Shown here in pieces: positions 776 to 20,485 of a stretch of DNA of 64,000 nucleotides. Origin of the DNA: Gluconobacter morbifer G707 (GTDB lineage: Bacteria > Pseudomonadota > Alphaproteobacteria > Acetobacterales > Acetobacteraceae); assembly GCF_000234355.1 (NCBI RefSeq), contig NZ_AGQV01000001.1:917001-981000 (forward strand). The letters run 5' to 3'. Numbering within the stretch: position 1 is the first letter of the stretch; each line of letters starts with the position of its first letter. The position numbers and the translations under genes were made by a program. The notes beneath the pieces were generated by a model, which worked only from the letters and a program-made list of their open reading frames with translations, ran no database searches and was not told the origin of the DNA.

Positions 776-3700
776 TTAGTGTGGTCTGGTGGCTGGATGG
801 CCGAGGAGTTCAAACTCACTGGCTTCGACTGTAGCGGGTTGCAGGATGTGCCAGTGATACAGGTGGTAACGGGCAGGATGAGATAGCAGGAACGGCCGGA
901 TCTGGTGTTTCCAGCGGAAGACTTCGCCGTCGCGATAATCCACGCGTTGCCATGTTTTCCCGTCATTAGAGGCCAGGATTTCCCATGACGAGGGTGCATG
1001 GGCGGGGTCTACGGAAGATGTCACGGTATAAGCCTGCGCCACGACGGAAGACGGGAGCGTAAGAGTAATGGTCCTGCTGGAGGTCAGGATGGAAACGGGA
1101 GCGGCCGTCATGGCGTCATTGTCAAACAGGGCCTCGGGTCCGGAATGCCGTGCGCCAGGCAGGTCTGTCAGATCAATGGCCGGGTCTGGGGTCTGGCCGG
1201 CCGGCGTCAGGGACGGAAGGGACGCGGCTGGAGTGGTGCCCCAGTGTGATGGGCTTGGCCCCATGTGGAACACCAGTTCGCCTCCGTTTGCAATTTCGTC
1301 ATGGGTCAGCCACCAGCGCGTCAGCGGTTTGCCGTTGAAAATGACGGACTGCACGAAGCGGTTGCGGTCACTGACGCCTGGTGCGCGGATGGTCAGGATC
1401 CGGTCATGGCCGACTTTCAGGCACATGGTCTCGAAGCGCGGCGCGCCGATGGCGTAAGTCGGCGTGCCCATCCGCAAGGGATAAAATCCCGCGGCACTGA
1501 AGAGCCACCAAGCCGACATCTCGCCGTTATCCTCATCACCGGGATAGCCTTGGCCGATAGCCGTACCGCGATAAAGCCGGTTCATGACATCGCGGATGCG
1601 GTCCTGTGCCTTCCAGGGTTGTCCTGCATAGTCGTACATGTAGAGGATATGGTGTGCAGGCTGATTGCTGTGGCTGTACTGCCCCATGCGGATGTCGTGC
1701 ATTTCCCGCATTTCATGGATCACGCCGCCATAGGCGCCCGTATGATAGACGCCGGGCGTCGTGAAATAGGCATCCAGTTTCCGGGCCAAGCCCGTGCGGC
1801 CACCGTAAAGGCTGGCGAGGCCCTGACCGTCCTGAACGGGATCGAAAGCCATGGTCCAGGCATTGGTTTCCGTATAATCGCCTCCCCAAGCCAATGGGTC
1901 GAAGTTCTCTTTGGTGGCTCTCCAGTGGCCATCCGGGCGGCGCCCGACGAAAAATCCGACGTCGCGGTCGAACAAATGGACGTAATTGAGAGCCCGATTA
2001 TGCAGGTACCAGCTTTCGGCAGCATAATCAGCCTGTTGCCGTGTGTTTGCCGATGTCGTGGTAGCGAGGGCGCTGGCCATTTCGCCCAGGGCGAAATCAT
2101 TCAGGGTTGCTGCGTTGGACCAGGACAGGGCTTCATCCGTGTCGGTATCGGTGTAACCGTGAAAAGCCGAGCGGTTCAGGCCCTTTCGTCCAACGCCGGG
2201 ATTGTCGGGAATAACCGTAGCGTCTTTCAGGCCTGCATCATAAAACGACGATGTGTCGAAGTTGCGGATCTGTTTGCTCCACGCATCGGCAAAGGCGACG
2301 TCAGCGCTCGTTCCGGTCATCAGATCGGCGTAGCCGGGAGAGGACCACCGGGCGATCCAGCCGCCTTCGCGATATTGCTGCACGAAACCCTCGATGAGTT
2401 GTCCGTCTTCATCCGGGGTCAGCAGGGCATAAGCGGGCCACGCTGTGCGATATGTGTCCCAGAAACCATTATTGACGTAGAGCACTCCATCCAGGACAGG
2501 AACGCCGGTCCGAGTTGGGCTATCGGGCGCGAGCCGAGATCGGAAGGAACTGGCATGCACGAAATGCGGCACGTCAGCCGTTCCTGCGTTTTCGGCAGCA
2601 TTGTTGGGGTAAAGATACATCCGGTAGAGATTGCCGTAGAGCGTACGTTGTTCATCCGCTGGTGCTCCCGGGATCTGCACGCGCGCCAGTCGGCTGTTCC
2701 ACGCGTCCTTTGCAGCCTGCGCCACGGTTTCGAACTTTGCATCAGAAGGAAGTTCCAGTGCGAGATTGTGCCTGGCCTGATCGAGGCTGATGAGGGATGT
2801 GGCAATCCGTATGGTAACGGAAGGGTCGACCTTTGTATCGAAGGCGGCCCAAGCCTGTACCTTGTCCCGTTTCTGGCCGGTCAGATGACCGGCAGCAACA
2901 ACCGGACGGTCAAATTCCAGATGCAAGAACATGCGGCTGGCGCCGGTCGAAAGGTCGCTGGCGATATCCGTGTAACCATCCGCACTGCGACCGTCCGGGG
3001 CCATAATGAGGCTGCCCTGGTTGGTGATGTTATCGAAGATCACTTGCCCACGGGATGCACCCGGATAGCGGAACCGCAGGATAGCGCTGTGGTCAGTGGG
3101 AGCTATCTCGGCGGTGATGCCGTTGTCGAGAGTGACAGCGTATTGATAAGGCAGGGCAGTTTCGTGGTCGTGCCTGAAGGTGGCGGCACGGGCAGTGCGA
3201 TCGGCGGACGGGCTACCGGATCCCGGTACCGGCATGATCTGGAAAGTGTTGCGGTCTCCCATCCAAGGACTGGGCTCATGGCTGAGAGACAGCGCCTCAA
3301 GGCGGGAATGGTTATCAGGGCCGTTGCGCTCCTGATATTGATAAAGCCAGTCGGAGTTGCCGCGTGTGACGGGAGTCCAGAAGTTGAAACCGTGCGGTAC
3401 AGCAACCGCAGGGAAATTGTTGCCACGAGAATAGTGACCATTCGCATTGGTGCCGCGTCGTGTGTCCACAAGGTCCGATGGCGTCAGACCCTGAATATCT
3501 TTGGCCTCACCAATTGAGATCGCATCGATATAGAGATGACGGGGAACAGCATGGGCTGCATGCGAGCAGAGCTCTATTGCAGCGACAGTCCGGCCAGCGG
3601 CGATAGCGCCCAAGGGCACATCCACCAGATTCCATTGATTGGGATAAAGCGCCCGACCCGTACCCTGATTCTGCGCCGTCAGCGGTGTTCCTGTAATGTC

Positions 3701-5649: not shown

Positions 5650-7896
5650 TCAGCTTCCAGGGGTAACTGGCAAATTGCGATGACGCTGGCCTGTTGCATG
5701 GAAAATTGCGTTGGCGATAGCTGCAGCCGTCCCGCACATGCCGATTTCACCCACACCCTTGATGCCGAGCGGGCTGACTTCCGAGTCTTTTTCTTTGACG
5801 AAAAGGACGTCCATATGTGGAATGTCCGCATGGGCCGGAATGTGATATTCGGAGAAATTGTGGTTCATAAAGCGGCCGACGCGTTCATCCATCAGGGATT
5901 CTTCGTGAAGCGCCATGCCAGTAGCCATTACCATGGCACCGCGGACCTGACTGGCTGCAGTTTTGGGATTCATGATGCGACCAGCCGCGACGGCATTGAC
6001 GAGACGGCTTACGCGCACAATGCCGAGTTCTGCATCCACGCGGACCTCGCAGAAGACTGCGCTATGGGTGAAGCGAGCTTTTCTCATCTGGCTGATGGTT
6101 CCGCGTAGGCCGGGCTTTGCGGTTTCCTCGACTTCGAGCTTTTCCTGACCCGTCAGGGACAAGGCTTCGGACAGGGAAAGCCTGAGAGTTTCATCTTCGC
6201 CCATGCCATGAAGAAAGCCATCCTGCAGGACCGTGGTGTTGTTCGATAGACCCTCGATCAGCCAGGTAGAGATATTCCCGCTTTTGCCCAGCGTTTTGAA
6301 AAGCTTCTCGCGCAGGCTCTGACAGGCAAGCCAGACGGCAGCTCCTGCGGAGGCAGCCGTCCACGATCCGCCTTCCGTTGGACACTCTGGAAGGGTTGAA
6401 TCGCCCAGTTCGATATCGATCCGATCTATTGGCATACCGAACGCTTCAGAAGCTGTCTGTGCCAGGATCGTATAGGTTCCTGTCCCGATGTCGGAGGCGG
6501 CCGTTGCGATATGCAGACGTCCATCGGAAGTCAGGGTGGCGCGTGCTGACGTGGGGGAGAACATTGCGTCCCAGATGCCTGTCGCCATGCCCCAGCCGAT
6601 CAGTTCCTTGCCCTCCCGCATGCTCCCTGGTGCCATCAGGCGGTCATGCCAGCCGAAACGTTCCGCGCCCTCAAGCATGGCCTCTTTCAGCGCCTTGCTG
6701 GTCAGAGGCATGTCATGCATGGCGTCGATGTCGGAATAGTTGTGCAGGCGAAATTCGAGCGGGTCCATATTGCAGGCATAGGCCATTTCATCGATAGCCA
6801 TTTCAAAGAGATTGACGCCTGTGGCCGCTCCCGGAGCCCGCATGTCGCTGGAGGTATAGGTATCGCGCGGGGCGACCTTGTAATCAGCCGTTGCGTTGGG
6901 ACATTTGTAATTGATCAGGCCCCAGATAACGAGATTTTCCATGTTGTGTTCGAAGCGGGACGTGTCCGTCACGCCGTCGACGATCATGGATTGCAACGTG
7001 CCGTCCAGCTGGGCACCAAGGGCAATATCCATGACGGCTTCCGGGCGGAAGACATGGGTGAACATCTGCGGGCGCGTCAGGGTGATACGGGTCGAGCGCT
7101 TCAGCATTTTTGCGCCGAGGGCTGCCAGAAAGACGTTGTGCTGGGCTCGCAGGCCGGATCCGAATGCACCGCCAACATAGGGATTGCGAACGCGGACCTG
7201 ATCCTTGGAGAGAGACAGGGCACTCGTCAGGTAGGCCTGTACGGCCTGCGGGCCCTGTGTCTTGTCCCAGACCGTGAAGGTGCCGTCATCTTCGGCAACA
7301 ACGGTGGTGGCGTGCATTTCCATGGGATTGTGATGTTCGGGAGCCAGGTGATAGCGCCCTTCGATCTTGATCGGACTGAGGGCATAGGCTTCGGCAGCGT
7401 TTCCGCGTGATTTGGGCGGCACGTAGTTACTGCGCGGTTTGCTGGGCATGTATTTCTGATGCAGGGACGCTTCGAAGTCCGCGTTATGAGGCCAGCATTC
7501 GTAATCAACTTCGACGAGCATCGCGGCTTCACGGGCGGCTTCGAATGTCTCTGCGAAGACAACGGCAACCGGCTGGCCATTGAAATTTATCTTTGCGTCG
7601 TGAAGCGGCCTGTAGGGGGAGCCGGGGACGCCTAGACCATCCACATAGGACTTTTCAAAAAGCGCGGTATGAGGGCGATTGAGGTGGGTCATGATTTCCA
7701 CCACGCCGGGCACTGAACGGGCTGCATCATCCCGGATCGTCTCAATGCGCCCCCGGGCGATGGGACTGTTCACGATGAAGCCGTACAGCATGCCGGCGGG
7801 ATGGGGTTCGGCAGCGTATCTGGCCTGTCCTGTCACTTTGGCGAGGCCATCGATCCGGGAAATGGGTTGTCCGATTTTTGCTGAGTGGATTGTCAT
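5650..7896 (-). CDS. paoC: Xanthine dehydrogenase-family molybdopterin subunit (PaoC-like)
   Basis: A 748-residue large subunit that binds the molybdenum cofactor and does the hydroxylation chemistry (aldehyde to acid in PaoABC-type enzymes). Family landmarks are the N-terminal IDGLAKVTGQARYAAE, the cofactor-binding NPYVGGAFGSG region, and the C-terminal GIKGVGEIG, whose glutamate is the expected catalytic base. It is the last gene of a three-gene operon, 12 bases after the FAD subunit, in the order 2Fe-2S, FAD, Mo as in E. coli paoABC. No XdhC/PaoD-type cofactor-insertion chaperone is adjacent, which is odd because that gene usually follows. Substrate is inferred from subunit type only; isoquinoline or nicotinate oxidoreductases share the fold. 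Confidence 0.87.
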   Translation of the reverse strand: MTIHSAKIGQPISRIDGLAKVTGQARYAAEPHPAGMLYGFIVNSPIARGRIETIRDDAARSVPGVVEIMTHLNRPHTALFEKSYVDGLGVPGSPYRPLHDAKINFNGQPVAVVFAETFEAAREAAMLVEVDYECWPHNADFEASLHQKYMPSKPRSNYVPPKSRGNAAEAYALSPIKIEGRYHLAPEHHNPMEMHATTVVAEDDGTFTVWDKTQGPQAVQAYLTSALSLSKDQVRVRNPYVGGAFGSGLRAQHNVFLAALGAKMLKRSTRITLTRPQMFTHVFRPEAVMDIALGAQLDGTLQSMIVDGVTDTSRFEHNMENLVIWGLINYKCPNATADYKVAPRDTYTSSDMRAPGAATGVNLFEMAIDEMAYACNMDPLEFRLHNYSDIDAMHDMPLTSKALKEAMLEGAERFGWHDRLMAPGSMREGKELIGWGMATGIWDAMFSPTSARATLTSDGRLHIATAASDIGTGTYTILAQTASEAFGMPIDRIDIELGDSTLPECPTEGGSWTAASAGAAVWLACQSLREKLFKTLGKSGNISTWLIEGLSNNTTVLQDGFLHGMGEDETLRLSLSEALSLTGQEKLEVEETAKPGLRGTISQMRKARFTHSAVFCEVRVDAELGIVRVSRLVNAVAAGRIMNPKTAASQVRGAMVMATGMALHEESLMDERVGRFMNHNFSEYHIPAHADIPHMDVLFVKEKDSEVSPLGIKGVGEIGMCGTAAAIANAIFHATGQRHRNLPVTPGS

Positions 7897-7908
7897 GCCC
7901 GGGCTCTT

Positions 7909-8916
7909 TCAGAAAATGTTCTTTTGCGTCTGGGACTGAGGCGTGCCAGCGGCCGCCTGCGATAGCGCGCGAATGATCACGCGAGGTGCCAGCTTCAGCT
8001 TTGCGGCATTGTCGCGGTCGGTGACGGCCCCTTGCAGAAGACATTCGGCGGCGTCCCGGAACAGGGAGTGGGAGGGCATTTTCCCTTCGAGGAGTGCCTC
8101 GGCTTCCGGAACACACCAGGGCTTTGTCCCGACGCCGCCCATGGCAACGCAGGCTTTGCGGATCGTATTGTTTTCCATCTGCAGGCCCGCTGCGACGGAG
8201 ACGATTGCAAAAGCGAAAGACAGGCGGTCACGTATCTTGAGATACGTGTGATGTGGGCCGAAAGAGAGGGGAGGAAGGTCAATGGACGTGACGATTTCGC
8301 CGGTACGCAGGATGTTGTCCTGCCACGGTGTATCTTCCGGGAGACGGTGATATTCGCGAAGGGGAACCTGACGTTCACCTTCCGGACCGGTAAGGTTGAC
8401 CGTCGCGTTCAGGGCCGCAAGCGCTATGCACATGTCGGATGGGAAGGTGGCGATACAGGCGTCGCTGGTCCCCAAAATGGCCATGATCCGGTTTCGTCCG
8501 CCTTTTGCAGAGCATCCTGTACCCGGTGAGCGCTTGTTGCAGGCCATGTCCGGGTCATAGAAATAATGGCATCGGGTTCTCTGGTTGAGGTTTCCACCGT
8601 TCGTTGCCCTGTTCCGGATCTGTGGGCTGGCGCCAGCGAGGATGGCGGAGGCCAGGAGAGGATAACGTTCGGTGACGAGCGGGTGAGCCGCCGTATCGGC
8701 ATTGGTGGCGAGGGCGCCGAGGCGCAGGACGCCGTCAGGACGTTCCTCGATCTGGCTCATGGACAGGGCGCTGAGATCGACGACATGTTCGGGGCGTTCG
8801 ACGTCCGATTTCATGAGGTCAATGAGGTTTGTGCCTCCTGCCAGATACCGTGTATGGTCTGGAGTGTGACAGGCGCTATCGAGGGTTTCGGGGCGGGAAT
8901 AGGAGAAATGTCTCAT
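7909..8916 (-). CDS. paoB: FAD-binding subunit with extra 4Fe-4S cluster (PaoB-like)
   Basis: A 335-residue FAD subunit (CO-dehydrogenase flavoprotein fold) with the nucleotide motif AGGTNLIDLM (about residues 26-35). The insertion RTRCHYFYDPDMACNKRSPG, followed by TGC, matches the segment that carries an additional [4Fe-4S] cluster in E. coli PaoB; this separates the PaoABC subtype from ordinary xanthine dehydrogenases. It overlaps the preceding 2Fe-2S gene by 4 bases, so translation is coupled. It passes electrons from the iron-sulfur subunit to FAD and then to an acceptor. Confidence 0.88.
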   Translation of the reverse strand: MRHFSYSRPETLDSACHTPDHTRYLAGGTNLIDLMKSDVERPEHVVDLSALSMSQIEERPDGVLRLGALATNADTAAHPLVTERYPLLASAILAGASPQIRNRATNGGNLNQRTRCHYFYDPDMACNKRSPGTGCSAKGGRNRIMAILGTSDACIATFPSDMCIALAALNATVNLTGPEGERQVPLREYHRLPEDTPWQDNILRTGEIVTSIDLPPLSFGPHHTYLKIRDRLSFAFAIVSVAAGLQMENNTIRKACVAMGGVGTKPWCVPEAEALLEGKMPSHSLFRDAAECLLQGAVTDRDNAAKLKLAPRVIIRALSQAAAGTPQSQTQKNIF

Positions 8917-9419
8917 GCAGCTTCTCCGGCCCGGTCCTGCTGTTGCTGGGTGAGGACCTGTTCAATGGCGTCAATGATACCGTTATAGGCTCCGCACCGG
9001 CAGAGATTGCCGCTCATGAACTCACGGATTTCCTCGCGGGTGCGCACATGTCCTTCTTCCAGAAGGGCGACCGCCGACATGATCTGTCCTGGCGTACAGT
9101 AGCCGCACTGGAAGGCATCCTGGTCAACGAAGGCCTGCTGCATCGGATGCAGATGGCCTTCATGCGCCAGCCCTTCGATTGTCGTGACCTCGGCATCCGG
9201 GATCGATACAGCCAGGATGAGGCAGCTTTTCACGCGCTTGCCGTCAACGAGAACGGTGCAGGCACCGCATTGTCCATGATCGCATCCCTTTTTCGTGCCG
9301 GTGAGATCCAGACGCTCACGCAGAAGGTCCAGTAATGTTACAGAGGGAGACAGATCAGCAGAGTAAGATTTTCCATTGATCTGGAGGCGACAGGGGCTAG
9401 CGACAGACACATCGGTCAT
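8913..9419 (-). CDS. paoA: 2Fe-2S subunit of aldehyde oxidoreductase (PaoA-like), no Tat leader
   Basis: A 168-residue small subunit with two [2Fe-2S] clusters: the plant-type motif GCDHGQCGACTVLVDGKRVKSC and the C-terminal QCGYCTPGQ ... GNLCRCGAY motif. A GGAGCG site precedes the ATG. Unlike E. coli PaoA, which has a long twin-arginine leader, this protein begins MTDVSVASPCRLQINGK and enters the ferredoxin fold directly. The complex is therefore predicted to be cytoplasmic unless exported by a partner. First gene of the operon; the promoter must lie in the long gap upstream. Confidence 0.88.
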   Translation of the reverse strand: MTDVSVASPCRLQINGKSYSADLSPSVTLLDLLRERLDLTGTKKGCDHGQCGACTVLVDGKRVKSCLILAVSIPDAEVTTIEGLAHEGHLHPMQQAFVDQDAFQCGYCTPGQIMSAVALLEEGHVRTREEIREFMSGNLCRCGAYNGIIDAIEQVLTQQQQDRAGEAA

Positions 9420-10170
9420 TGGGAAGCGCTCCGTTCGGCATCAGTTTTTTAAGTGTGTCAGGGTATAAGAAGCAGGCAGAGCTCAGGTTTCACGAAATTA
9501 TCTGCGATGCGGGAGATAAATTTCTTTCTGTCGGTGAATATTTTTCAGATGTGAAGATGACTGTGCGTGATATTCATTTTGAGAAAAGGGGAGAACAGTC
9601 ATTATTTTTCGTAACATATTCGTGACCTGGACATTCAGTACGAACGAATCAGATATCCGGCATCTGTTGAACTTCTGAAAATACTTTGACGGGAATTATG
9701 GCGGTGAAAAACAGGGCGTAACTTCGTCACTGAAGGAATAGTCCTTTTTTTGGACGGGTTAAGCTTGCTGTTTGCAAATGTTCAGGTCAGCCTGAGGGAC
9801 TTTCTGGCGGCTTTTCTTGCAACAGAGGATGGATCGCGGCTGGTTATGGCCGGGAGAGGGGTGGGGGCCGTTCTGGCCTGTTTGTGGGTAGATAACTGGA
9901 TACCCTCGCGCACCCACGTCTAATGCTGGGCATCTGTTACGTCACGATCTTTATCCTGCCCGGCGAATAGCGTGGGAGTTGCTGTTCTCCAATGTGTCTG
10001 TGGGCTCGCCGTGGCCTGCCTCTTTGCATTGGCCATGTCAGAAATCCATCCTCCGGTTTCAGATGCAGCTCATTCCCGCAGAATAGTGACCGGGGACTGT
10101 GTTCTGATCGGGATCCATGACTGGTAACCGGGCGTTGCCAGATCTGGATTGCGTGGAAGGACGCTCAGGC
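9420..10170. other. Long intergenic gap, possibly with a decayed membrane-protein gene
   Basis: No intact gene. It contains the start regions of the divergent paoABC-like and flavoprotein operons. Between about 9770 and 10080 the + strand translates in two broken frames to hydrophobic runs (GRGVGAVLACLWV; CVCGLAVACLFALAMSE) separated by stops. This could be a remnant of a membrane transporter such as an FUSC-type exporter, but the match is weak. Confidence 0.35.
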
Positions 10171-11310
10171 ATGTTGAATTCTGGTCAGGATATTTCTGAC
10201 GACGGCCTTTCTGCATTTCGGGTCAGGCTGAAGCATCTGTATGAGGACTGGAAGGCCAGACCATTCATTCCAACCGAAAATCTTTTTCCTGCGGAGCTTC
10301 TGAATGCTTTACGGGAGATCGGAGCGCTGGATGCTCTTCTCACGGCTGAAGAGGGAGGCCTCGGACTGGCCAGCTCGTCTGAAGAAGGAAGCAGGGCGCT
10401 TCTCATTCTCTTGCGGCGGGTGGGGTATCTAAGTCTCTCTCTGGGGCGGTGTCTGGAAGGGCACATGAATGTTGTGCGGCTTGCGGGGCTATATGGCACA
10501 AAAACGCAGTTTCACGCCTTGGCTCGTACTCTCAGGACTGGCGTTCTGGCTGGCATATGGGTTACGGACAACAATATTCCTGTATCGATACGAAAGGCAG
10601 GTGAGGGATACAGGCTTTCCGGCATCAAGGGATTTGCAAGCGGTGTCAGTGAGGTTGGTCTGGCGTTGATAACAGCTCTGACCGAGAAAGAAGATTCGGT
10701 TATGGTGCTGGCCCCGACCACTGATGCTGATCGCAGGCGACCGGGGCCGGGCAAGCTGACCGGTATGCAGGCGAGTGGGACGGGCGCTTATGATTTCACG
10801 GATCTTTCCATTGCCGGCGAGAATATTCTTGGGTCTGCGGGAGACTATCTGCGGCAGCCTGAATTTTCTGCCGGAGCGTGGCGGGGATCGGCAGTTGCCC
10901 TTGGCGGCATGGACCGCTTGGTTGATCTGCTGAAGCAGGAACTTCTGACGCGGGGTCGGGCCAATAATCCGCATCAGCTTTTTCGGATTGGAGAAGCAGC
11001 TATCCTTCAGAGGACGGCTTCCATGTGGATTGAGCGGGCTGCCCATGCGGCGTGCGGTGGTTCAGATATGGAACATGAAGAAGTGACTGCTACTGTCAAT
11101 CTTGCGCGGATTGCCGTTGAGCGAGCGGCTCTGGATCTGATCACGCTTGTACAGAGGGGGCTTGGTCTTTCAGCTTTTGTAAGGGGGAGGGCGGTTGAAC
11201 AGGTCATGCGGGATCTGGCGACTTATCTGAGGCAGCCGGCTCCGGATGAAGCGTTGACTGAAGGCGCTGCCTGGTTTGTCCGCCATGACTGGCCGGAGGA
11301 GCATGCATGA
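10171..11310 (+). CDS. Acyl-CoA dehydrogenase-fold flavoprotein, catalytic Glu region atypical
   Basis: A 379-residue protein with the acyl-CoA dehydrogenase layout: helical N-terminus, FAD/substrate beta domain (GIWVTDNN ... YRLSGIKGFASG) and helical C-terminus (GRAVEQVMRDLATYLRQPAP). The frame is open back to an ATG at 10117, but the ATG at 10171 has AAGGA nine bases upstream and is preferred. The C-terminal segment lacks the usual E-G-T/S motif holding the catalytic glutamate; QPAPDEALTEGA stands in its place. The protein may therefore not dehydrogenate acyl-CoA and could be a flavin oxygenase of the same fold, as in amino-sugar N-oxygenases (inference). It overlaps the deacetylase gene by 4 bases, so they form one operon. 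Confidence 0.75.
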   Translation: MLNSGQDISDDGLSAFRVRLKHLYEDWKARPFIPTENLFPAELLNALREIGALDALLTAEEGGLGLASSSEEGSRALLILLRRVGYLSLSLGRCLEGHMNVVRLAGLYGTKTQFHALARTLRTGVLAGIWVTDNNIPVSIRKAGEGYRLSGIKGFASGVSEVGLALITALTEKEDSVMVLAPTTDADRRRPGPGKLTGMQASGTGAYDFTDLSIAGENILGSAGDYLRQPEFSAGAWRGSAVALGGMDRLVDLLKQELLTRGRANNPHQLFRIGEAAILQRTASMWIERAAHAACGGSDMEHEEVTATVNLARIAVERAALDLITLVQRGLGLSAFVRGRAVEQVMRDLATYLRQPAPDEALTEGAAWFVRHDWPEEHA

Positions 11311-12038
11311 AAATTCAGGACATGCTTCAGTATTTTGCCAGTTTTCCGGTTGCGCCCCTCGAGACGATTGCATGCGGGACGACGCTTGTCCTGTCTCCTC
11401 ATCCGGATGATGAAAGTCTGGGCTGCGGGGGCTTTATCGCGACGACGGTCAGCAATGGGCGGCCGGCGGTTGTGGTGATCGTTTCTGATGGGTCGGCGTC
11501 TCATCCCCGTTCATTGACGTGGCCGTCCGGGCGGCTTGCCCGGCTTCGTCAGGAAGAGACCCGGGATGCTGTGGCGGAGCTTGGTTTGCCCTCTGACCGG
11601 CTGTTGTTTCTGGGATTGCAGGATACGGCCGTTTCGACGGAGGGTGAGGGCTTTGACGCCGCTATTTCTCAGCTGCTTGAAATTGTCCTTCGTCATGATT
11701 GCACGACGGTTCTGGTGCCGTGGCGGCATGATCCGCACTGCGACCACGAAGCCGTCTGGATCATGGGGCAGAAGCTGAAAACCCTGCGGCCAAATCTCAG
11801 GATACTGTCTTATCCTGTCTGGGGTCTGACCCTGCCTCCTGAAATGGAAATCGAAGAGGCGGTTCCAACAGGCTGGCGGCTTGATGTCCGGGCCTTTCTG
11901 GACAGGAAACGGGCAGCCGTTCTGGCACATCGGAGCCAGCGTGGGTTGGTCGTGGAGGATGATCCGACGGGCTTTGTTCTGCCGGAACATCTCCTGGGAA
12001 AAATTCTGCAGCCTTATGAAATCTTCATCGCGTCATGA
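11307..12038 (+). CDS. PIG-L/LmbE family N-acetylglucosaminyl deacetylase
   Basis: A 243-residue zinc-dependent deacetylase. The family's metal site is visible as SPHPDDESLGCGG (HPDD at residues 32-35) with the third ligand in RHDPHCDHEAV. PIG-L/LmbE/MshB enzymes remove acetyl groups from N-acetylglucosaminyl or related amines. GGAGGAGC precedes the start; the gene overlaps both neighbours by 4 bases (ATGA), so it sits between the flavoprotein and the methyltransferase in a tightly coupled operon. In other bacteria a PIG-L domain is found fused to a class I methyltransferase; here the two are separate but adjacent. Substrate unknown. Confidence 0.87.
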   Translation: MKIQDMLQYFASFPVAPLETIACGTTLVLSPHPDDESLGCGGFIATTVSNGRPAVVVIVSDGSASHPRSLTWPSGRLARLRQEETRDAVAELGLPSDRLLFLGLQDTAVSTEGEGFDAAISQLLEIVLRHDCTTVLVPWRHDPHCDHEAVWIMGQKLKTLRPNLRILSYPVWGLTLPPEMEIEEAVPTGWRLDVRAFLDRKRAAVLAHRSQRGLVVEDDPTGFVLPEHLLGKILQPYEIFIAS

Positions 12039-12667
12039 GCAATGATACATGGAAACCGGAAGTCTTCGAAAATCTGTTTCAGGACAATCCTGATCCCTGG
12101 GGCTTTGAAAGCAGTCCGTACGAGAAAAAGAAGCTTGCGCGGGTTCTGGAATGCCTTCCTGCCTCTCCGGTTTCCTTTGTTGTAGAGCTTGGATGTGCAA
12201 TCGGGGTCAGTACGCTGGCGCTTTCAGAACACTGTCAGCGTGTTCTGGCAGTTGATGCATCGGAAAATGCGCTTGTTATCGCAAGGGAACGATGCCAGAG
12301 ACAGGCACACGTCAATTTTCTGAAGGCTTTCCTGCCGGTGGATTATCCGGTTTCAGAAGCTGCCGGTTGTGATCTCGTGCTTATTTCGGAAATTCTTTAC
12401 TTCCTGGCACCAGAAGACATTCGGTGCCTTGCTGGCATGGTGATGGAGAGCCTGGTATCGACAGGGCATATCCTGATCGTAAACTGGACCGGACAGACAG
12501 ATACGCCCTGCACGGGAGATGAGGCGGCCGAGTGTTTTATCCGGGCCTGCCATAAAAGATACTGGGGTCCTGATCTGTCAGAACGGGGTGACGGATATCG
12601 TATAGACCGGTTGTGCTGGTCCGGAAATTCTCAGACGAAAGGCGTTTCTTCCGACGAAGAAAATTGA
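12035..12667 (+). CDS. NodS-like class I SAM-dependent methyltransferase
   Basis: A 210-residue methyltransferase. The N-terminal DPWGFESSPYEKKKLARVL is characteristic of the NodS family, and VVELGCAIGVSTLALSE is SAM motif I, followed by VLAVDASENAL. NodS N-methylates the deacetylated amino sugar of rhizobial Nod factors; small-molecule relatives methylate other amines. Directly following a PIG-L deacetylase, an amine-methylating role is plausible but inferred. It overlaps the deacetylase by 4 bases, and its 3' end overlaps the opposing glycosyltransferase by 131 bases. Confidence 0.85.
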   Translation: MSNDTWKPEVFENLFQDNPDPWGFESSPYEKKKLARVLECLPASPVSFVVELGCAIGVSTLALSEHCQRVLAVDASENALVIARERCQRQAHVNFLKAFLPVDYPVSEAAGCDLVLISEILYFLAPEDIRCLAGMVMESLVSTGHILIVNWTGQTDTPCTGDEAAECFIRACHKRYWGPDLSERGDGYRIDRLCWSGNSQTKGVSSDEEN

Positions 12668-13736
12668 GAACTCGCAGCGCCCGCTCATGATGCCGCTGCA
12701 GTTCACTACGGCGAATAGGAATGGCAGGAAGCTCCGGATAGGGTATTTCGAGGCAGGATGACTGACTTGCGTGCCAGTATGCATGTTCTCTTCGAAGACG
12801 CAGCAGGCGTCTGGACACCGGTTCGAAGGCGTCGTCGATATGTTCGTCCTGTGCGATCAGGCGCCTTGCCAGGGTTTCCGCCATGCCACCCCGGGCCCGT
12901 CCCTGAAGGCGTGCTGAGACGTACACCTTCACTTCCGGGGCATGGCGGACAGGAATCCCTTTCTGCCGTAATGCGCGATAAAATTCCCGGTCTTCTCCTG
13001 AAGAAACATCTGGAATCCCGCCTGCCTTACGCCATGCCTGATGTGTGACAGCGATGCTGGCACCTGAATGTTCCAGATGCCGGGGCCACGGGTCGTGGGG
13101 TTCGGGGCTGAGCAGCAGTCCGATCTGTTCCAGAAGTGCTCCATAGGCCCGTTCCGACTTCTCATCCTCATGAAGGTGGGGAGGAATTTTCCTGTGTTCT
13201 TCTGGAAAAAGAAGGACATGACCGAAAACGGCTTCAACAGGATATCGAATGAACGCTGCAAGAATGCTGTCCATCCAGTCATCGGCGACTTTACTATCGG
13301 CATCCGTGGTTAACAGAATGGCGTCGGGCGACGCAGTTCTGGCAGCATGGGCTATGGCATCACGCCGTGCCACACCGGCGCTTGCTACTGACGGGTCATA
13401 AAAGACCGTGACAGTTTCCAGCTCGAATGGGAGCCTGTCGGCCAGAGAGACAGCCTGATGATGAGTATCGTCCGTCGTGTTGTTGATCCAGAGAACGACC
13501 TTGTCTGGCGGATGCTTCTGCGCGGCCAGGGCGAAAAGGCAGGGAGCGATATGCTCTTCCTCGTTACACACGGGAATCACGACAATTCTCTGTTTTTTCC
13601 AGACAAGGACCTGTCTGCGCAGGAATGAAGAACCTGAATTGATAACCGAAAGAGTATGGCCGTCCAGTTGGGGTTTACCCATGCTTTCAGGGCAAAGAAC
13701 GGCTGCACCTGGTCCACCCGTCCGTCTGTTCGCCAT
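12537..13736 (-). CDS. Family 2 glycosyltransferase
   Basis: A 399-residue GT-A fold protein. VVIPVCNEEEHI (about residues 52-63) is the nucleotide-sugar binding start, TTDADS (residues 143-148) is the metal-binding DXD, and EHSGASIAVTHQAW ... SSGEDREF supplies the acceptor region and catalytic acid (ED). No membrane segments were seen, so it should be cytosolic. It starts 2 bases after a proline-rich small gene and runs head-on into the flavoprotein/deacetylase/methyltransferase operon, ending 131 bases inside the methyltransferase gene. The four enzymes together resemble an amino-sugar glycoside tailoring set. Confidence 0.85.
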   Translation of the reverse strand: MANRRTGGPGAAVLCPESMGKPQLDGHTLSVINSGSSFLRRQVLVWKKQRIVVIPVCNEEEHIAPCLFALAAQKHPPDKVVLWINNTTDDTHHQAVSLADRLPFELETVTVFYDPSVASAGVARRDAIAHAARTASPDAILLTTDADSKVADDWMDSILAAFIRYPVEAVFGHVLLFPEEHRKIPPHLHEDEKSERAYGALLEQIGLLLSPEPHDPWPRHLEHSGASIAVTHQAWRKAGGIPDVSSGEDREFYRALRQKGIPVRHAPEVKVYVSARLQGRARGGMAETLARRLIAQDEHIDDAFEPVSRRLLRLRREHAYWHASQSSCLEIPYPELPAIPIRRSELQRHHERALRVLNFLRRKKRLSSENFRTSTTGLYDIRHPVLTDQDPSIFYGRPG

Positions 13737-13738
13737 TT

Positions 13739-14005
13739 TCAGATGCTCACCATCAGTAACGGTTCAGGGACGTGCTGAACCTGGTTTGTCGGGTTCTCAG
13801 GGCCATCGGGAAGCGCTGGTGGCTCATCTGGCGGCGGAGGGGGAGCTTTTTTCTCCGGAGGATACGATTTTCCCGGAGTTTCTTCTTCGGGGGGCTCGTC
13901 CGTGATCGGACTTTTATCCGGGTAGGGATCGAAGCGCTCCTGTTCATCAGGAGAGCCGGGGGCTTTTGTAGGGTTTTTGGGCAAAGCGCTATTCGGAAAA
14001 GGCAT
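13739..14005 (-). CDS. Small proline- and glutamate-rich protein
   Basis: An 88-residue protein of very low complexity: many P, E, D and K residues, with a run of five prolines (KKAPPPPPDEPPALPDGPEN). No signal peptide, membrane segment or known domain. The ATG at 14005 has GGAGG eight bases upstream, so it is preferred over the in-frame ATG at 14017. It ends 2 bases before the glycosyltransferase start, which argues that it is expressed with it. It is probably intrinsically disordered; function unknown. Confidence 0.55.
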   Translation of the reverse strand: MPFPNSALPKNPTKAPGSPDEQERFDPYPDKSPITDEPPEEETPGKSYPPEKKAPPPPPDEPPALPDGPENPTNQVQHVPEPLLMVSI

Positions 14006-14316
14006 GATCGCCTCCATTGATGAGACAGATCAATGGCTGAGAATGACGAGAGTTCAGATCACTTAAAAAAGATGCTGGAGGTGGGCCTGTTTGTTCGGAT
14101 TGGGACGCCCCTAGATTTCTGGACGTACCGATGCGGTGGCGCAGGTTACTGATGTCGTGTGGAAGGTGCTCCACATGGCCAAGTGAAAAATCTTCAGGTT
14201 CCCCGGGTAATGACGGTTCGTGGAGGCCAGATTTTTGACGAGCGCAAACGGCTTGACCGCAACCATGTTTTGCACCCAGCCTGATACTCGAAAGAGAGGG
14301 AGGTGATTACCTGCCT
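14006..14316. other. Gap between proline-rich gene and hutC
   Basis: It lies downstream of hutC and upstream of the proline-rich gene. No gene-like frame, repeat or convincing terminator was seen; it must contain the promoter for the minus-strand glycosyltransferase pair. Confidence 0.4.
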
Positions 14317-15063
14317 CTATATTTGGAAACCGTCGGTTGTGGATTTTCGTCTTCCGCCCAGGCTGTAACGGTTGCCGGGATAGGTGAAGATTCCTTTCAT
14401 GACGACCCGCCCTTTGACCCATGTGCGGCGAACCAGTTGGAGACAGGGCTCGTGCGGGCCGATGTCCAGTAGAGACTGCAGTTCCAGTGTGGGAGAGACC
14501 GCGAAGACAATGTGCTCGATCTCGTCAGGGCCAGAAATATGGTACAGATGCCGGTGCGGATGGGCCAGGGTAAAATCCTGCTGGAGATATTCGGGAGCGA
14601 AGGCTGGTGAGACGAAACGTTCTTCTACCTGAAGCGGAATATCGTCTTCGAAATGCACGATTACTGAATGGAAGAGTTTGCTGCCAGGACGCATGTCGAA
14701 GGAAAATGCGAGGTCGATGTCTGCCCGGATGGCTTCCAGTGTAATGACCTGCGCTGTGTGGGTGTGGCCTGAACTCAGGATGTCATCGGCGATGTCGTGG
14801 AGTTCCAACAAGTCGGCTTTGGGAGACGGTCGGGAAACGAATGTTCCCACCCCCTGCGCACGGACAACGATCCCCTCGGTCATCAGTTCGCGAAGGGCGC
14901 GGTGAACCGTCATGCGAGAGACGCCGAGGAGATCCACCAGCTCACTTTCAGAGGGAAGCTTCTGGCCTTCCTTCCACTCTCCATCCTGAATACGCTCGGT
15001 AATGTAGAGTTTGACCTGTTCGTACCGAGCGGGAGAGCGTTCCCGGGGAGCGGCCATTTTCAT
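14317..15063 (-). CDS. hutC: Histidine-utilisation repressor HutC (GntR family)
   Basis: A 248-residue GntR/HutC-type repressor: winged helix at the N-terminus (KLPSESELVDLLGVSRMTVH, about residues 35-54, then RALRELMTEG) and a UTRA ligand domain ending in RTWVKGRVVMKGIFTYPGNRYSL. HutC blocks hut operons until urocanate binds its C-terminal domain. It lies 98 bases downstream of hutI on the same strand, so it is probably co-transcribed and autoregulated. Matching half-palindromes with TATATACAAG occur at the hutI/hutF divergent promoter and at hutU, and a relative in front of the aminotransferase operon. Confidence 0.92.
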   Translation of the reverse strand: MKMAAPRERSPARYEQVKLYITERIQDGEWKEGQKLPSESELVDLLGVSRMTVHRALRELMTEGIVVRAQGVGTFVSRPSPKADLLELHDIADDILSSGHTHTAQVITLEAIRADIDLAFSFDMRPGSKLFHSVIVHFEDDIPLQVEERFVSPAFAPEYLQQDFTLAHPHRHLYHISGPDEIEHIVFAVSPTLELQSLLDIGPHEPCLQLVRRTWVKGRVVMKGIFTYPGNRYSLGGRRKSTTDGFQI

Positions 15064-15161
15064 GTCGCAGGCTGTCCTTCAACCAAGAAGCGGCAATCCA
15101 AAAAACATCCTGGCGAAACAGTTATCTAGACCAGAGGTTGTATGGATAAGAATATACGATT

Positions 15162-16406
15162 TCATACCACAGGAGCCAGTTTGCCGTCAAAAATCCGATG
15201 AATGGGTCTTCTGCCTCCGATCCAGTATGAAAGTTCGTGCGGGCCGGTGATATCCCACAGGAGCATATCTGCAACCTGTCCCGCAGCCAGTGTGCCAGCT
15301 ATGTTCTGAAGACCCAAGGCCTGGGCGCCGATCCGCGTCACGGCCGAGAAGGTCTCTTCCGGGGTCATGCGGAACAGGGTGCAGGCCATGTTCATGATGC
15401 CTGTCAGACTGACGCTTGGGGAGGTACCGGGGTTGCAGTCTGTAGCAAGTCCCATCGGAACATTGTGCTTACGGAACAGGTCTATGGGGGGTATGCGCGT
15501 TTCGCGGATGAAATAGAAGGCGCCGGGGAGCAGCATGGCGACCGTACCTGCCCTGGCCAGATCGATGATGTCGTCTTCGACGACATATTCCAGATGGTCG
15601 GTCGAGAGAGCGCCGTAACGGGCTGCCAGTTTTGTCCCGCCGCTGTTGGAGAGCTGCTCGGAATGGAGGCGTACAGGGATATTCAGGTCGGAGGCGGCGA
15701 TGAAGAGCCGCTCGATCTGGTCAGGGGTGAAAGCGATGTTTTCACAGAAGCCGTCAATGCTGTCGATCAGGTTTTCTTTTGCGGCCTGAGGAAGGATGTC
15801 TGAGATGAGGTGAGTGACATAGTCGTCCTGACGGCCTCTGAACTCCGGGGGCAAAGCGTGGGCGCCGAGGAAGGTGGCATGGACGCGCACGGGTAGGGCA
15901 GCGCCGATGGCGCGGGCGACACGAAGCTGCTTGAGTTCATCCTGCAGGGTCAGCCCATAGCCGGATTTCATTTCCAGGGTTGTCGTGCCCTCGGCGATCA
16001 TGCGGTGAACGCGACGGGCGGTGATGTCGAAAAGTTCTTTTTCGGTCACGTTGCGGGTCGCATTGACCGTGGAGACGATACCGCCGCCCTTAAGTGCGAT
16101 CTCCGCATAGGAGGTGCCGTTGAGGCGTTCGGCGAACTCCAGACTGCGGTCTCCGGCGTAAATGACATGGGTGTGGGCATCCACGAGGCCCGGCGTCATC
16201 CAGAGCCCCTGTCCCGAGCGGACATCATAGGCCAGATTCGAAGGGACGTCTGGAAGATCGCAAACTGGGCCGACCCAGCTGATCCGTCCGTTTTCAATGC
16301 CGATGGCTGCGTTATGGATGCAGCCATAGCCATCCTGCTCCGAAATGAGCGTCGGATCGGCGGTTGCGACATGAATGTCTGTCCAGAGTGTATCCCACAT
16401 TCGCAT
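15162..16406 (-). CDS. hutI: Imidazolonepropionase HutI
   Basis: A 414-residue amidohydrolase that opens imidazolonepropionate to N-formimino-L-glutamate, the third step of histidine breakdown. The metal site is visible as [20 protein letters not shown], with further histidines in HATFLGAH and LHSEQ, and the late [14 protein letters not shown] motif. The frame stays open far upstream (to 16964), but that part is antisense to hutF; the ATG at 16406 has AAGGAAGA immediately upstream and gives the normal family length. It is transcribed divergently from hutF, and a HutC-type site lies 31 bases upstream of the start. Confidence 0.95.
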
Positions 16407-16437
16407 TCTTCCTTGGTGGCGCCGAATCCGCCACAGT

Positions 16438-16449
16438 GGTATATACAAG
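16438..16449. promoter_or_regulatory. Putative HutC operator at hutI/hutF
   Basis: GGTATATACAAG, identical over 12 bases to the site in front of hutU (18769-18780). It lies in the 123-bp divergent region between hutI and hutF. HutC of Pseudomonas and relatives recognises dyads of the CTTGTATATACAAG type, so this is a good half-perfect match. Confidence 0.75.
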
Positions 16450-16529
16450 TCTTGTAATTCCATTATCATCACGCAACCAACGGAAAAAGAAAAGACTTTC
16501 CGCATGATGAGGGAAGGAATGTCGAGGTT

Positions 16530-17891
16530 ATGGAACTGTTTGCGGAGCAGGCCCTTCTGCCAGATGGCTGGCGCAGGAATGTAAGAATTACGGTTTCTTC
16601 CGACGGGAGATTTGATGCGATTGTCCCGGACTCCGATATGCCTGCCGGAGCTGAGCGGAAAGCGATTGTTGTTCCATCGCAGCTCAGTCTGCATTCCCAT
16701 GCCTTTCAGCGTGGCATGGCGGGTCTGGCGGAGAGCCGACAGAACCCGGCTGATACGTTCTGGACCTGGCGCCGGCTGATGTATCAGCTCGCGCATCGCA
16801 TCTCGCCCGCACAGATGCAGGACATTGCAAGCTACCTGTATATGGAAATGCTGACGGCCGGATATACGCAGGTCGCGGAGTTTCATTATCTTCATCATGC
16901 GTCGGGTGGTGTGGCCTACGGGCAGGTGGCGGAGATGTCCCTGCGGGTTGGCGAGGCGGCGCATGCGGTTGGGATCGGACTGACGCTTCTGCCGACGCTT
17001 TATGAGCGCGGGGGCTTTGATGGTCGCCCTTTGCAGGAGGCTCAGGAGCGGTTCGCGACGACGCCTGAGCTTATTGGCAGGATCGTCAGTGAGACCCGGT
17101 CAGCTTGGGCAGGGAGGCCGCTTCTGTCCGTTGGACTGGGGCTGCATTCGCTGCGGGCTGTTGATCTGGAGGCGGCCTCGGATCTTCTGGTGGCGCAGAC
17201 AGGTCCCGTTCATATTCATGTGGCCGAGCAGCAGAAGGAAGTGGAGGAATGCGTTGCCTCCGTTGGCGCGCGGCCTGTGGAGTATCTGCTGTCTCATGCG
17301 GATGTGGACGAGCGATGGTGTCTGGTGCATGCGACCCATCTGTCATCATCCGAGGTCGCAGGCATGGCGCGTTCCGGAGCTGTGGCGGGGCTTTGCCCGA
17401 TTACGGAAGCCAATCTGGGGGACGGCCTTTTTCCGCTTGAGTCTTATGTGAATGACGGGGGGCGCTTCGGAATCGGAAGTGACAGCAACGTGCTGGTCAG
17501 TCCGTGGGAAGAGTTGCGTACTCTGGAATACGGGCAAAGGCTTTTTACGCAGACGCGATGTGCGGCCCTGCCGGCTGAGACTCTGGGCTCTACGGGCGGA
17601 TGGCTGTACCGTCAGGCTCTGGATGGTGGTCGGCGTGCCTGTGGACTTGAGGCCTGGGGATTAGTGGCTGGTGCCCGGGCTGATCTGTGCGTGCTGGACG
17701 AGGATCTGCTGCCGCTGCCGTATCTACAGGATGATGCCGTGCTTGATGCGGCCATTTTCGGATCGCGTCAGCCTCCCGTGAAAAATGTACTGTGCGGTGG
17801 GCAGTGGCGCGTGCGTGATGGGCGACACCTGAATCATGATTCCGTGACGGCTGCGTTCCGGCGGACCGTGCGTACTCTTCTCGATCTATGA
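16530..17891 (+). CDS. hutF: Formimidoylglutamate deiminase HutF
   Basis: A 453-residue amidohydrolase that deaminates N-formimino-L-glutamate to N-formyl-L-glutamate. The metal-binding [12 protein letters not shown] is at about residues 53-64, [14 protein letters not shown] in the middle, and GIGSDSNV late, all typical of HutF. The start has GAGG seven bases upstream. With HutG it defines the five-step histidine route that releases formate and a second ammonia, rather than the formamide route. It is followed by hutG with 21 bases between. Confidence 0.94.
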
Positions 17892-17912
17892 TCTTACAAG
17901 GAAAGCCTGATC

Positions 17913-18713
17913 ATGACGGATGTTTTTTCCTTTGTTCCCGGCACGATGCCCGTGCTTGTGACCCTTCCTCACTCCGGCTGCCATCTGACGCCCGGAATGG
18001 AAAAGCGAATGACGGAACGGGGACGTCAGTTACCTGATACTGACTGGTATATGGAACATCTCTATGCGGGGGCCTTGTCAAAGGGGATGGGTGTACTGAA
18101 GGCTCATCATTCCCGTTATGTGGTGGACCTGAATCGTGGCGCTGACGATGCGGCGCTTTATCCGGGGCGTCCCAGCACGGGGCTTGTGCCATCTCTGACG
18201 TTTGATGGACGGCCCATTTACCGGTCCGGGCAGGAGCCGGACGAAAGCGAGATTGCCGAGCGGCGGGAAGCTTGCTGGCGCCCTTACCATGATGCCGTGT
18301 CGGCAGAACTGGAGCGGCTCCGTCAGAAATGGGGATGGGCGGTTCTGTGGGATGGACATTCCATCAAATCGACTATTCCCCGGCTGTTTGAGGGGACGCT
18401 TCCGGATCTGAATCTGGGGACCAATAGTGGGCAGTCCTGTGCCGGGGAGTTGCAGGCGCGTCTGGAACGCCGGCTGGCAGGAAATGCGGCTTATAGCCAT
18501 GTCGTCAATGGTCGTTTCAGGGGCGGTTATACGACGCGGCATTACGGGCAGCCTGAGCATGGAATCCATGCCGTCCAGCTTGAAATCGCGCAATCCACCT
18601 ATCTGCGGAGCGAAGAGGCGCCTTGGCCGATCGATCTGGAAAAGGCGGTGCGTCTGTCGCGGATGATCGACGGTCTGCTGGAGACGGCCCTGTGCTGGCG
18701 GCCGGGAAAATAA
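17913..18713 (+). CDS. hutG: N-formylglutamate deformylase HutG
   Basis: A 266-residue zinc amidohydrolase of the N-formylglutamate amidohydrolase family that splits N-formylglutamate to glutamate and formate, the last step of the route. Visible landmarks: TLPHSGCHLTP, DTDWYMEHLY, VVDLNRGADD, LWDGHSIKS and GGYTTRHYGQPEHGIHAVQLE. AAGGAAAG precedes the start. Formate released here could be used by the molybdenum oxidoreductase and FdhD system at 43-47 kb (inference). Co-directional with hutF and hutU. Confidence 0.94.
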   Translation: MTDVFSFVPGTMPVLVTLPHSGCHLTPGMEKRMTERGRQLPDTDWYMEHLYAGALSKGMGVLKAHHSRYVVDLNRGADDAALYPGRPSTGLVPSLTFDGRPIYRSGQEPDESEIAERREACWRPYHDAVSAELERLRQKWGWAVLWDGHSIKSTIPRLFEGTLPDLNLGTNSGQSCAGELQARLERRLAGNAAYSHVVNGRFRGGYTTRHYGQPEHGIHAVQLEIAQSTYLRSEEAPWPIDLEKAVRLSRMIDGLLETALCWRPGK

Positions 18714-18738
18714 ATCCCGGTGTCATTTCATAAATGGA

Positions 18739-18767
18739 TTGACAATTCCGCAGTGCGATTTGAGTAT
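18739..18767 (+). promoter_or_regulatory. Putative sigma70 promoter of hutU
   Basis: TTGACA at 18739-18744, then 17 bases, then GAGTAT at 18762-18767 as a weak -10. The HutC-type site begins two bases after the -10, where a bound repressor would block initiation. Confidence 0.55.
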
Positions 18768-18768
18768 T

Positions 18769-18780
18769 GGTATATACAAG
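18769..18780. promoter_or_regulatory. Putative HutC operator in front of hutU
   Basis: GGTATATACAAG, the same 12-mer as at 16438. It covers the likely transcription start of the hutU-hutH operon, 20 bases before the hutU ATG. Confidence 0.78.
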
Positions 18781-18799
18781 TTCATACAGGATAAAGCCC

Positions 18800-20485
18800 A
18801 TGAGTGATTCCGGCAGCCGCCTTTCGAATGATCGTGTCATCCGCGCCCCGACTGGTCCTGAACTCTCGGCAAAGAGCTGGCAGACGGAAGCGCCGCTCCG
18901 GATGTTGATGAACAATCTTGACCCCGAGGTTGCGGAAAAGCCGTCTGAGCTCGTTGTCTATGGTGGTATTGGTCGGGCGGCACGGAACTGGGACTGCTAT
19001 GACAGGATCGTCGAGGCGCTGCGTGGCCTGGAAAACGATCAGACGCTGCTGGTTCAGTCCGGCAAGCCGGTGGGTGTGTTCCGGACGCATGCTGATGCGC
19101 CGCGTGTGCTGATCGCGAACTCCAATCTGGTGCCGCACTGGGCAACCTGGGAAAAGTTCAATGAACTCGATCGGGCCGGGCTCATGATGTATGGGCAGAT
19201 GACGGCGGGATCATGGATCTATATCGGGTCTCAGGGCATCGTTCAGGGCACGTATGAGACCTTCGTGGAAATGGGACGCCAGTATTATGGCGGTAACCTG
19301 AAGGGACGCTGGATCCTGACGGGCGGTCTGGGTGGCATGAGCGGAGCGCAGCCTCTGGCGGCCGTCATGGCCAGTGCGTCCATGCTTGCTGTGGAATGTG
19401 AGCCTTCCCGTATCCAGAAGCGTCTTGAGACGGGGTATCTGGACCGGCAGGTAAAGGATCTGGATGAGGCCTTGGAAATCATTCATGACGCCTGCGCGAA
19501 GGGCGAGGCCGTTTCTGTCGGTCTTCTGGGAAATGCCGCGGAAGTCTTTCCGGAACTGGTGCGGCGCGGCATCCGTCCGGATGGTGTGACGGATCAGACG
19601 TCCGCTCATGATCCGCTGAATGGATATCTGCCGGCGGGATGGTCGTTGGAGAAGGCCGAGAAGATGCGGCTCACCAATCCGGCAGCGGTCGAAAAGGCGG
19701 CGCGGGAGTCCATGCGGCTTCAGGTCGAGGCCATGGTTGCGTTCCATCGCCAGGGCATTCCGACCTTCGATTACGGCAACAACATCCGGCAGATGGCTTT
19801 TGACGAAGGCCTTGAAGACGCCTTTGCCTTCCCGGGCTTCGTGCCGGCCTATATCCGCCCGCTTTTCTGCCGGGGTGTGGGGCCGTTCCGATGGGCGGCG
19901 CTCTCGGGTGATCCGGAGGACATCTACAAGACGGACCAGAAGGTCAAGGAACTGCTGCCGGACGACAAACACCTGCACAACTGGCTCGATATGGCGCGGG
20001 AGAAGATCCACTTCCAGGGCCTGCCTTCGCGCATCTGCTGGGTCGGTCTGGGGGATCGTCATCGTCTGGGGCTGGCGTTCAACGAGATGGTTGCCAGTGG
20101 CGAGCTCAAGGGACCGATCGTGATCGGTCGTGACCATCTGGACAGTGGTTCAGTGGCCAGTCCGAACCGTGAGACCGAAAGCATGCGTGACGGATCGGAT
20201 GCTGTGTCCGACTGGCCGCTGCTTAATGCGCTGCTGAATACGGCGTCGGGCGCGACCTGGGTTTCGCTGCATCATGGCGGCGGTGTCGGCATGGGCTTCT
20301 CCCAACATTCCGGCATGGTGATCGTGGCGGATGGTACGCCGGATGCGGCGCGGCGTCTGGAGCGGGTGCTGTGGAACGATCCTGCGACAGGGGTCATGCG
20401 GCATGCCGATGCCGGTTACGATATTGCGACTGACTGTGCCCGCGAGAAGGGCCTCGATCTTCCCATGATTACGCGCGGAGCCTGA
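18800..20485 (+). CDS. hutU: Urocanate hydratase HutU
   Basis: A 561-residue urocanase with tightly bound NAD+, converting urocanate to imidazolonepropionate. Strong family signatures: [66 protein letters not shown] and the catalytic-cysteine region [16 protein letters not shown]. The start at 18800 has AGGA upstream and matches the usual length; an earlier ATG at 18767 would lie inside the promoter and operator. Seven bases separate it from hutH. Confidence 0.96.

Follow-up and report, generated by a model that had tools for sequence, protein, structure and literature searches.

A widely conserved four-gene set in Gluconobacter morbifer, tentatively read as a stress-associated amino-sugar glycoside pathway

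What might be made by four adjacent genes for an acyl-CoA dehydrogenase (ACAD)-fold flavoprotein, a PIG-L deacetylase, a NodS-like methyltransferase and a glycosyltransferase of family 2 (GT2)? The genes lie in a 64,000-nucleotide stretch of contig NZ_AGQV01000001.1 of Gluconobacter morbifer G707 (hereafter the window, to which all positions refer), in a genome of 2.89 Mb and 19 contigs; judged by the four-gene locus, its closest named relatives are Gluconobacter. An earlier reading of the DNA, the original prediction, had likened the logic of the set to the tailoring of Nod factors. We find the set ordinary in its enzyme families and best read as tailoring of an amino-sugar glycoside associated with stress. 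Tentatively, at a probability of about 0.38, we propose that the four genes form one small pathway making an N-modified amino-sugar glycoside that is used under stress, i.e., desiccation, osmotic or oxidative stress. What is new here are stress genes near the set and EcfG-like motifs in some alphaproteobacterial groups; these features of relatives were absent from the original prediction, as was a 131-base overlap between two of the genes.

The four-gene set and its conservation

The flavoprotein gene (10171..11310, + strand, 379 aa) possibly encodes a flavin-dependent monooxygenase. Its open reading frame spans 10117-11310 (+), and the start was placed by comparison with relatives at the ATG at 10171 that they have in common. 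It is followed by the genes for the PIG-L (LmbE-like) deacetylase (11307..12038, +, 243 aa; PF02585, 86.6 bits, cut-off 28.2) and the NodS-like S-adenosylmethionine-dependent methyltransferase (12035..12667, +, 210 aa; PF05401, 52.6 bits, cut-off 24), and is faced by the convergent GT2 gene (12537..13736, − strand, 399 aa; PF00535, 53.4 bits, cut-off 23.3). The chain of three genes facing a GT2 gene is as originally described, with a 4-base ATGA overlap at both the flavoprotein/PIG-L and the PIG-L/methyltransferase joins. The methyltransferase and GT2 frames overlap tail to tail at their 3' ends over the 131 bases 12537-12667. Ratios of nonsynonymous to synonymous substitution rates (dN/dS) were 0.11-0.19 in 12 comparisons of the four genes with three Gluconobacter loci (rough values, dS 0.84-1.39), so all four genes are under constraint.

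The four genes are a conserved unit, found on chromosomes and plasmids of many unrelated bacteria. A search of 60 genomes with the flavoprotein gave matches in 16: the window's own, 11 of its 25 congeners and four more, one of these four matches being an ordinary ACAD. A separate contig scan confirmed 343 relatives, 80 of which were kept as named loci. With hidden Markov models (HMMs; score at least 100), 64 of these 80 contain all four genes, eight lack PIG-L only, two lack both PIG-L and GT2, one lacks GT2 and five have the flavoprotein alone, some contigs ending inside the locus. In a phylum sample of 397 genomes, 37 matches reached 150 bits, a cut-off placed at a visible gap (151.9, 131.9, 109.0). 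Besides the window's match, 36 were analysed; the genome at 131.9 bits was left out, and its region holds no partner genes. All four genes occur at 27/36 of these loci, whereas three lack GT2, two lack PIG-L, three pair the flavoprotein with the methyltransferase only and one with PIG-L (contig ends truncate some stretches). In 40 control regions, drawn from 29 phylum-sample genomes, none of the families was found at E 1e-6; the same run on the case loci recovered the flavoprotein in 36/36, PIG-L in 32/36, the methyltransferase in 35/36 and GT2 in 29/36. The co-occurrence on which the original prediction had staked its validity is thus borne out.

Gene order varies among full-set loci: GT2 is last and convergent in 62, first in 20, last on the same strand in 19 and placed otherwise in one. 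The methyltransferase and GT2 genes overlap at their 3' ends in 41 of 53 convergent pairs of named loci. Across 62 loci, pairwise distances in any one of the families track those in the others (r 0.87-0.94, common descent contributing). Among 72,556 plasmid records, 59 matched the flavoprotein at 1e-5. Eleven of 15 opened plasmid loci hold all four genes, including those of Deinococcus sp. NW-56 and Nostoc, although the HMMs were built partly from plasmid loci and their matches there hold by construction. The D. radiodurans and Roseomonas plasmid loci lack GT2 within the stretch, and those of Methylobacterium sp. FF17 and Gloeothece lack any partner. The set thereby reaches Pseudomonadota, Deinococcus and cyanobacteria; its environmental carriers include Gluconacetobacter diazotrophicus PA1 5 (L049). 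We recognised no description of it in the open PubMed Central (PMC) literature through annotation-word searches, which papers using locus tags only would escape. In five Methylobacterium and Methylorubrum loci, one of which (L095) ends soon after the gene, the flavoprotein has no recognised partner nearby. In D. radiodurans (L098), a helicase gene sits between the PIG-L and methyltransferase genes.

Enzyme families and predicted chemistry

The motifs that were reported for the deacetylase (HPDD), the methyltransferase (DPW...SPYE) and GT2 (an intact DXD) are all present. In the deacetylase, HPDD occupies residues 32-35, and H32, D35 and H147, which we take to be the PIG-L metal ligands, are invariant in 36 sequences. 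Its best solved profile match is diacetylchitobiose deacetylase (5.5e-22), and it has in common with the PIG-L sugar deacetylases (diacetylchitobiose deacetylase, BshB and MshB) the segments HPDDE and DPHCDH. It differs from these enzymes in its partner genes, and it falls far below the NCBIfam equivalog cut-offs of BshB and MshB (BshB1, 51.1 of 182.5; BshB2, 49.9 of 195.25; MshB, 19.3 of 224.35).

The genes are not always adjacent. When eight genomes were searched, exactly one PIG-L of the cluster type was found in each of five genomes of one genus. The single PIG-L of genomes G086 and G200 sits away from the cluster and scores 309.9 and 303.0 bits, respectively, compared to 293-316 for cluster-borne copies; in G190, PIG-L lies about 12 kb off. 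No PIG-L was found at 1e-8 by genome search in G325 or G267, a locus of the latter (L151) having just a weak, divergent PIG-L-type frame, and none lies within the short stretch of L015. At a single locus (L123), one open frame encodes both PIG-L and the methyltransferase. Taken together, the sequence comparisons indicate that PIG-L is a true partner of the set. Four loci of one genus carry an additional PIG-L-type gene close by.

The methyltransferase carries DPW and SPYE where NodS itself has DPW and NPFE, and has EVLYxL in common with NodS. The strongest profile match is 4isc (1.8e-45), titled only Methyltransferase; NodS (3ofj, 5.1e-29) is the nearest named structure, while the NCBIfam NodS equivalog is not reached (59.9 bits vs 300). 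In GT2, the DXD motif reads DAD (residues 145-147), both aspartates (D145 and D147) being invariant across 50 sequences. A profile search of structures returned one weak match, TarS (7e-4), and Foldseek matches a predicted model (pLDDT 85.6) to GT-A enzymes that differ in specificity, led by chondroitin polymerase.

These families only partly uphold the Nod-like logic. Among named solved structures, those closest to the deacetylase and the methyltransferase, diacetylchitobiose deacetylase and NodS, presumably act on chitooligosaccharide-type sugars, and the set matches the Nod factor pathway (NodC, NodB, NodS) in joining a GT2, a deacetylase and a NodS-like methyltransferase at a single locus. 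Unlike the Nod factor pathway, the cluster adds a flavoprotein, its deacetylase is of the PIG-L type rather than that which we take NodB to represent, and no acyltransferase was recognised among its neighbours, most of whose families are unannotated.

The flavoprotein is the least conventional member. It has the ACAD fold, yet falls below the Pfam ACAD gathering scores (PF02771, 14 bits vs 22.9; C-terminal domain unmatched), which a D. radiodurans homologue does exceed. As first noted and confirmed in translation, it lacks the usual E-G-T/S segment and reads RDLATYLRQPAPD there. We anchored two base positions, which we take to correspond to the catalytic glutamates of MCAD and IVD, on the genuine ACAD L017. 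MAFFT of four sequences left the C-terminus unaligned, and the base position therefore rests on the RD anchor. Pro356 and Trp237 occupy these positions in 48/48 sequences of alignment A3; the 14 rows of alignment A2 are more varied, with P, A, S or D at the first position, W, L, V, A or P at the second, and Glu in 0/14. A catalytic glutamate at an alternative position, which would have spoken against the original prediction, is thus found at neither known base position. Being an ordinary acyl-CoA dehydrogenase, L017 (from genome G028) was excluded from the counts.

Several comparisons align the flavoprotein with two-component ACAD-fold monooxygenases (DszC, TdsC, MsuC and KijD3), with which it shares the fold and the missing dehydrogenase glutamate. 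In the A2 profile, MsuC (1.3e-28) and DszC (1.5e-28) come ahead of 2dvl (1.3e-25), the top-scoring dehydrogenase. A8, which is A2 minus a distant Gloeothece row, places DszC first and MsuC second (DszC 1.4e-21 vs 2dvl 9.2e-20). Foldseek ranks 1-16 are TdsC, DszC, 5gj7 and 5z8t, with TcsD at rank 17. Other results do not set oxygenases apart: A1 puts VLCAD first and matches FkbI at 1.7e-12, A3 ties an ACAD with DszC at the top, the VIA-align structural comparison does not separate oxygenases from ACADs, and the sugar N-oxygenase KijD3 is one among many about equally distant relatives, dehydrogenases included. The top-ranked structure therefore varies with the rows taken into the profile. Identity to the DszC-type enzymes is 17-20 percent, the NCBIfam DszC equivalog is far off (21.6 bits vs 850), and where DszC and MsuC have LHD, RQP or a near variant stands instead. 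With Foldseek and two of four profiles on their side, we lean towards a monooxygenase, a lean rather than proof; the A8 and A3 results lowered our probability for the stress-glycoside pathway from 0.42 to 0.38. In the portions of PMC5481743 used here, KijD3 and DnmZ, termed glycoside-modifying N-oxygenases, fall in the DszC-type group. Of the amino-sugar N-oxygenase originally proposed, the missing ACAD motif stands, whereas no special closeness to KijD3 emerged. The D. radiodurans plasmid homologue (L098:6546-8885) has about 400 extra N-terminal residues that look glycosidase-like by eye and have no Pfam match.

Stress genes and EcfG-like motifs near the set

Genes for KatE, Mn-catalase, OtsAB, TreYZ/MalQ or Ku/LigD occur in the stretch at 16/36 phylum-sample loci compared to 2/40 controls (odds ratio 15.2, Fisher p 7e-5, kinship among genomes uncorrected). 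The query list was drawn up post hoc and two queries came from case loci; minus those, the count is 14/36. By gene, the loci number four for KatE, two for Mn-catalase (by tblastn; clustering also grouped L122 there), three for OtsAB, three for Ku/LigD and six for TreYZ/MalQ, and both control matches are TreYZ. Among the 15 opened plasmid regions, one of them unannotated, a catalase gene adjoins the set or the flavoprotein in five (Sulfitobacter, Acinetobacter, Paracoccus, Novosphingobium and Sphingomonas), trehalose genes occur in two and Ku/LigD in one. On the Acinetobacter plasmid, an island (L104:1383-14758) brings the four genes together with catalase, otsAB, DUF2171, an MFS transporter and a redox enzyme of haem-oxygenase-like type (PF14518). 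The parts of PMC13232832 used here describe a diiron oxidase co-transcribed with KatE, the desiccation protein DtpC, which is alike in type to the PF14518 enzyme; words for the four enzymes are absent from its main text. That a compact, widespread set lies close to genes for coping with desiccation and oxidative stress suggests a stress metabolite, or a surface sugar, yet to be recognised.

Upstream regions were searched with a motif pattern based on what we take to be the EcfG consensus. Examples of the promoter pattern appear in the consulted parts of PMC6599016, according to which catalase, Ku and trehalose genes, i.e., types found beside the cluster elsewhere, are EcfG-dependent in S. melonis. 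Across 103 loci taken as alphaproteobacterial (some near duplicates, not all with GT2), an EcfG-like motif occurs in the 400 bases preceding the flavoprotein gene at 17 and those preceding GT2 at 10, with about two expected for each. Within 300 bases, the Komagataeibacter/Novacetimonas/Gluconacetobacter group has it at 13/18 flavoprotein genes (0.19 expected from shuffles) and 3/17 GT2 genes, and 12 of the 13 sites end in TGTT, not CGTT. The same limit gives 0/11 in Gluconobacter, 0/15 in Acetobacter plus Tanticharoenia and, for other loci, 1/34 at the flavoprotein gene and 7/25 at GT2 (0.21 expected).

The regulator PhyR was judged by frame length, PF22233 also matching ECF sigma factors. PhyR-sized frames (253-255 codons) occur in 9/9 Komagataeibacter-group genomes tested and 0/5 Gluconobacter genomes. 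Frames of PhyR size (249-250 codons, one of them under the cut-off) also occur in three Acetobacter genomes, yet no Acetobacter locus has the motif, indicating that the motif does not simply follow PhyR; conversely, the motif of L057, a site repeated in L125, is in a genome with no PhyR-type match. In having the motif upstream, some groups resemble the EcfG/PhyR general stress response regulons of alphaproteobacteria, from which the window's own genome departs in having neither an upstream motif nor a PhyR-type (PF22233) match. Any stress link for the window is accordingly drawn from relatives rather than seen in the window.

Proposed pathway and competing explanations

The stress-glycoside reading builds on the conservation of the set as a unit, on enzyme families with intact motifs, on the absent dehydrogenase glutamate and on stress-gene linkage in other genomes. 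From these we infer the sugar donor and acceptor, the order of steps, oxygenation and specifically N-oxygenation, the protective role and its validity in this genome. GT2 would transfer an N-acetylhexosamine from a nucleotide sugar onto an acceptor, and PIG-L would then take off the acetyl group. The flavoprotein may oxygenate the product, most likely at the freed nitrogen, using reduced flavin from a reductase encoded elsewhere, and the NodS-like enzyme would methylate that nitrogen or the new oxygen. Sugar chemistry could in this way become a further role for the ACAD fold. More specifically, the product might be an unrecognised stress protectant, namely an N-oxygenated, N-methylated amino-sugar glycoside (a sugar hydroxylamine or radical-trapping nitrone) deployed with catalase, trehalose and end-joining repair; we regard this as rather unlikely, and slightly more so after the A8 and A3 results.

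Possible, if on the whole doubtful, is that what the cluster tailors is not a small molecule but a glycan of the cell surface or an exopolysaccharide, the amino sugar being added to an envelope acceptor and modified there. Novosphingobium, Sphingobium, Jiella and several sampled genomes, in which as many as three additional glycosyltransferases adjoin the set, fit this idea, and the EcfG-dependent genes of S. melonis in the available parts of PMC6599016 include glycosyltransferases #3505-3508 and exopolysaccharide protein #3509, their identity with the cluster not being established. However, the set at its smallest includes a single glycosyltransferase, nine loci share an MFS transporter, and neither a flippase nor a polymerase was recognised in the recurrent neighbour families, most of them unannotated. 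That transporter, a candidate exporter, lies near the set in Methylobacterium and Bradyrhizobium.

The flavoprotein could instead be a dehydrogenase or desaturase preparing an acyl chain (of the acyl-ACP type, as FkbI or TcsD) whose attachment to the amino sugar would yield a glycolipid. The A1 match to FkbI, TcsD at Foldseek rank 17 and the ACAD ties in A3 and VIA-align agree with this, but with Glu at neither base position in A3 or A2, and no acyltransferase or acyl carrier protein recognised among the largely unannotated recurrent neighbours, we think it unlikely. Still less probable is a pathway to a low-molecular-weight thiol or sulfur compound built on a sugar, in which the flavoprotein would act on sulfur like DszC and MsuC: sulfur oxygenases do come first in the A2 and A8 profiles, the deacetylase resembles BshB (about 50 bits) and a stress neighbourhood fits redox protection, whereas the BshB1, BshB2 and MshB cut-offs are far from reached and no cysteine ligase was recognised among the same mostly unannotated neighbours. 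Accidental adjacency of functionally unrelated genes draws on loci with partial sets and nothing more; already contradicted by the co-occurrence counts (27/36 and 64/80 loci with the full set, 0/40 controls with any), and facing several gene orders and one fusion, it is barely credible.

Adjoining the GT2 gene in the window is a small Pro/Glu-rich open reading frame (13739-14017, −), part of which fell within the span first assigned to the cluster (to 14005). It has no Pfam or NCBIfam match, and its matches are confined to Gluconobacter loci (38-79 percent identity). From reading translations, a molybdenum-hydroxylase-type three-gene set lies upstream (5650-9419, −) and histidine-utilisation-type genes lie downstream (14317-20485).

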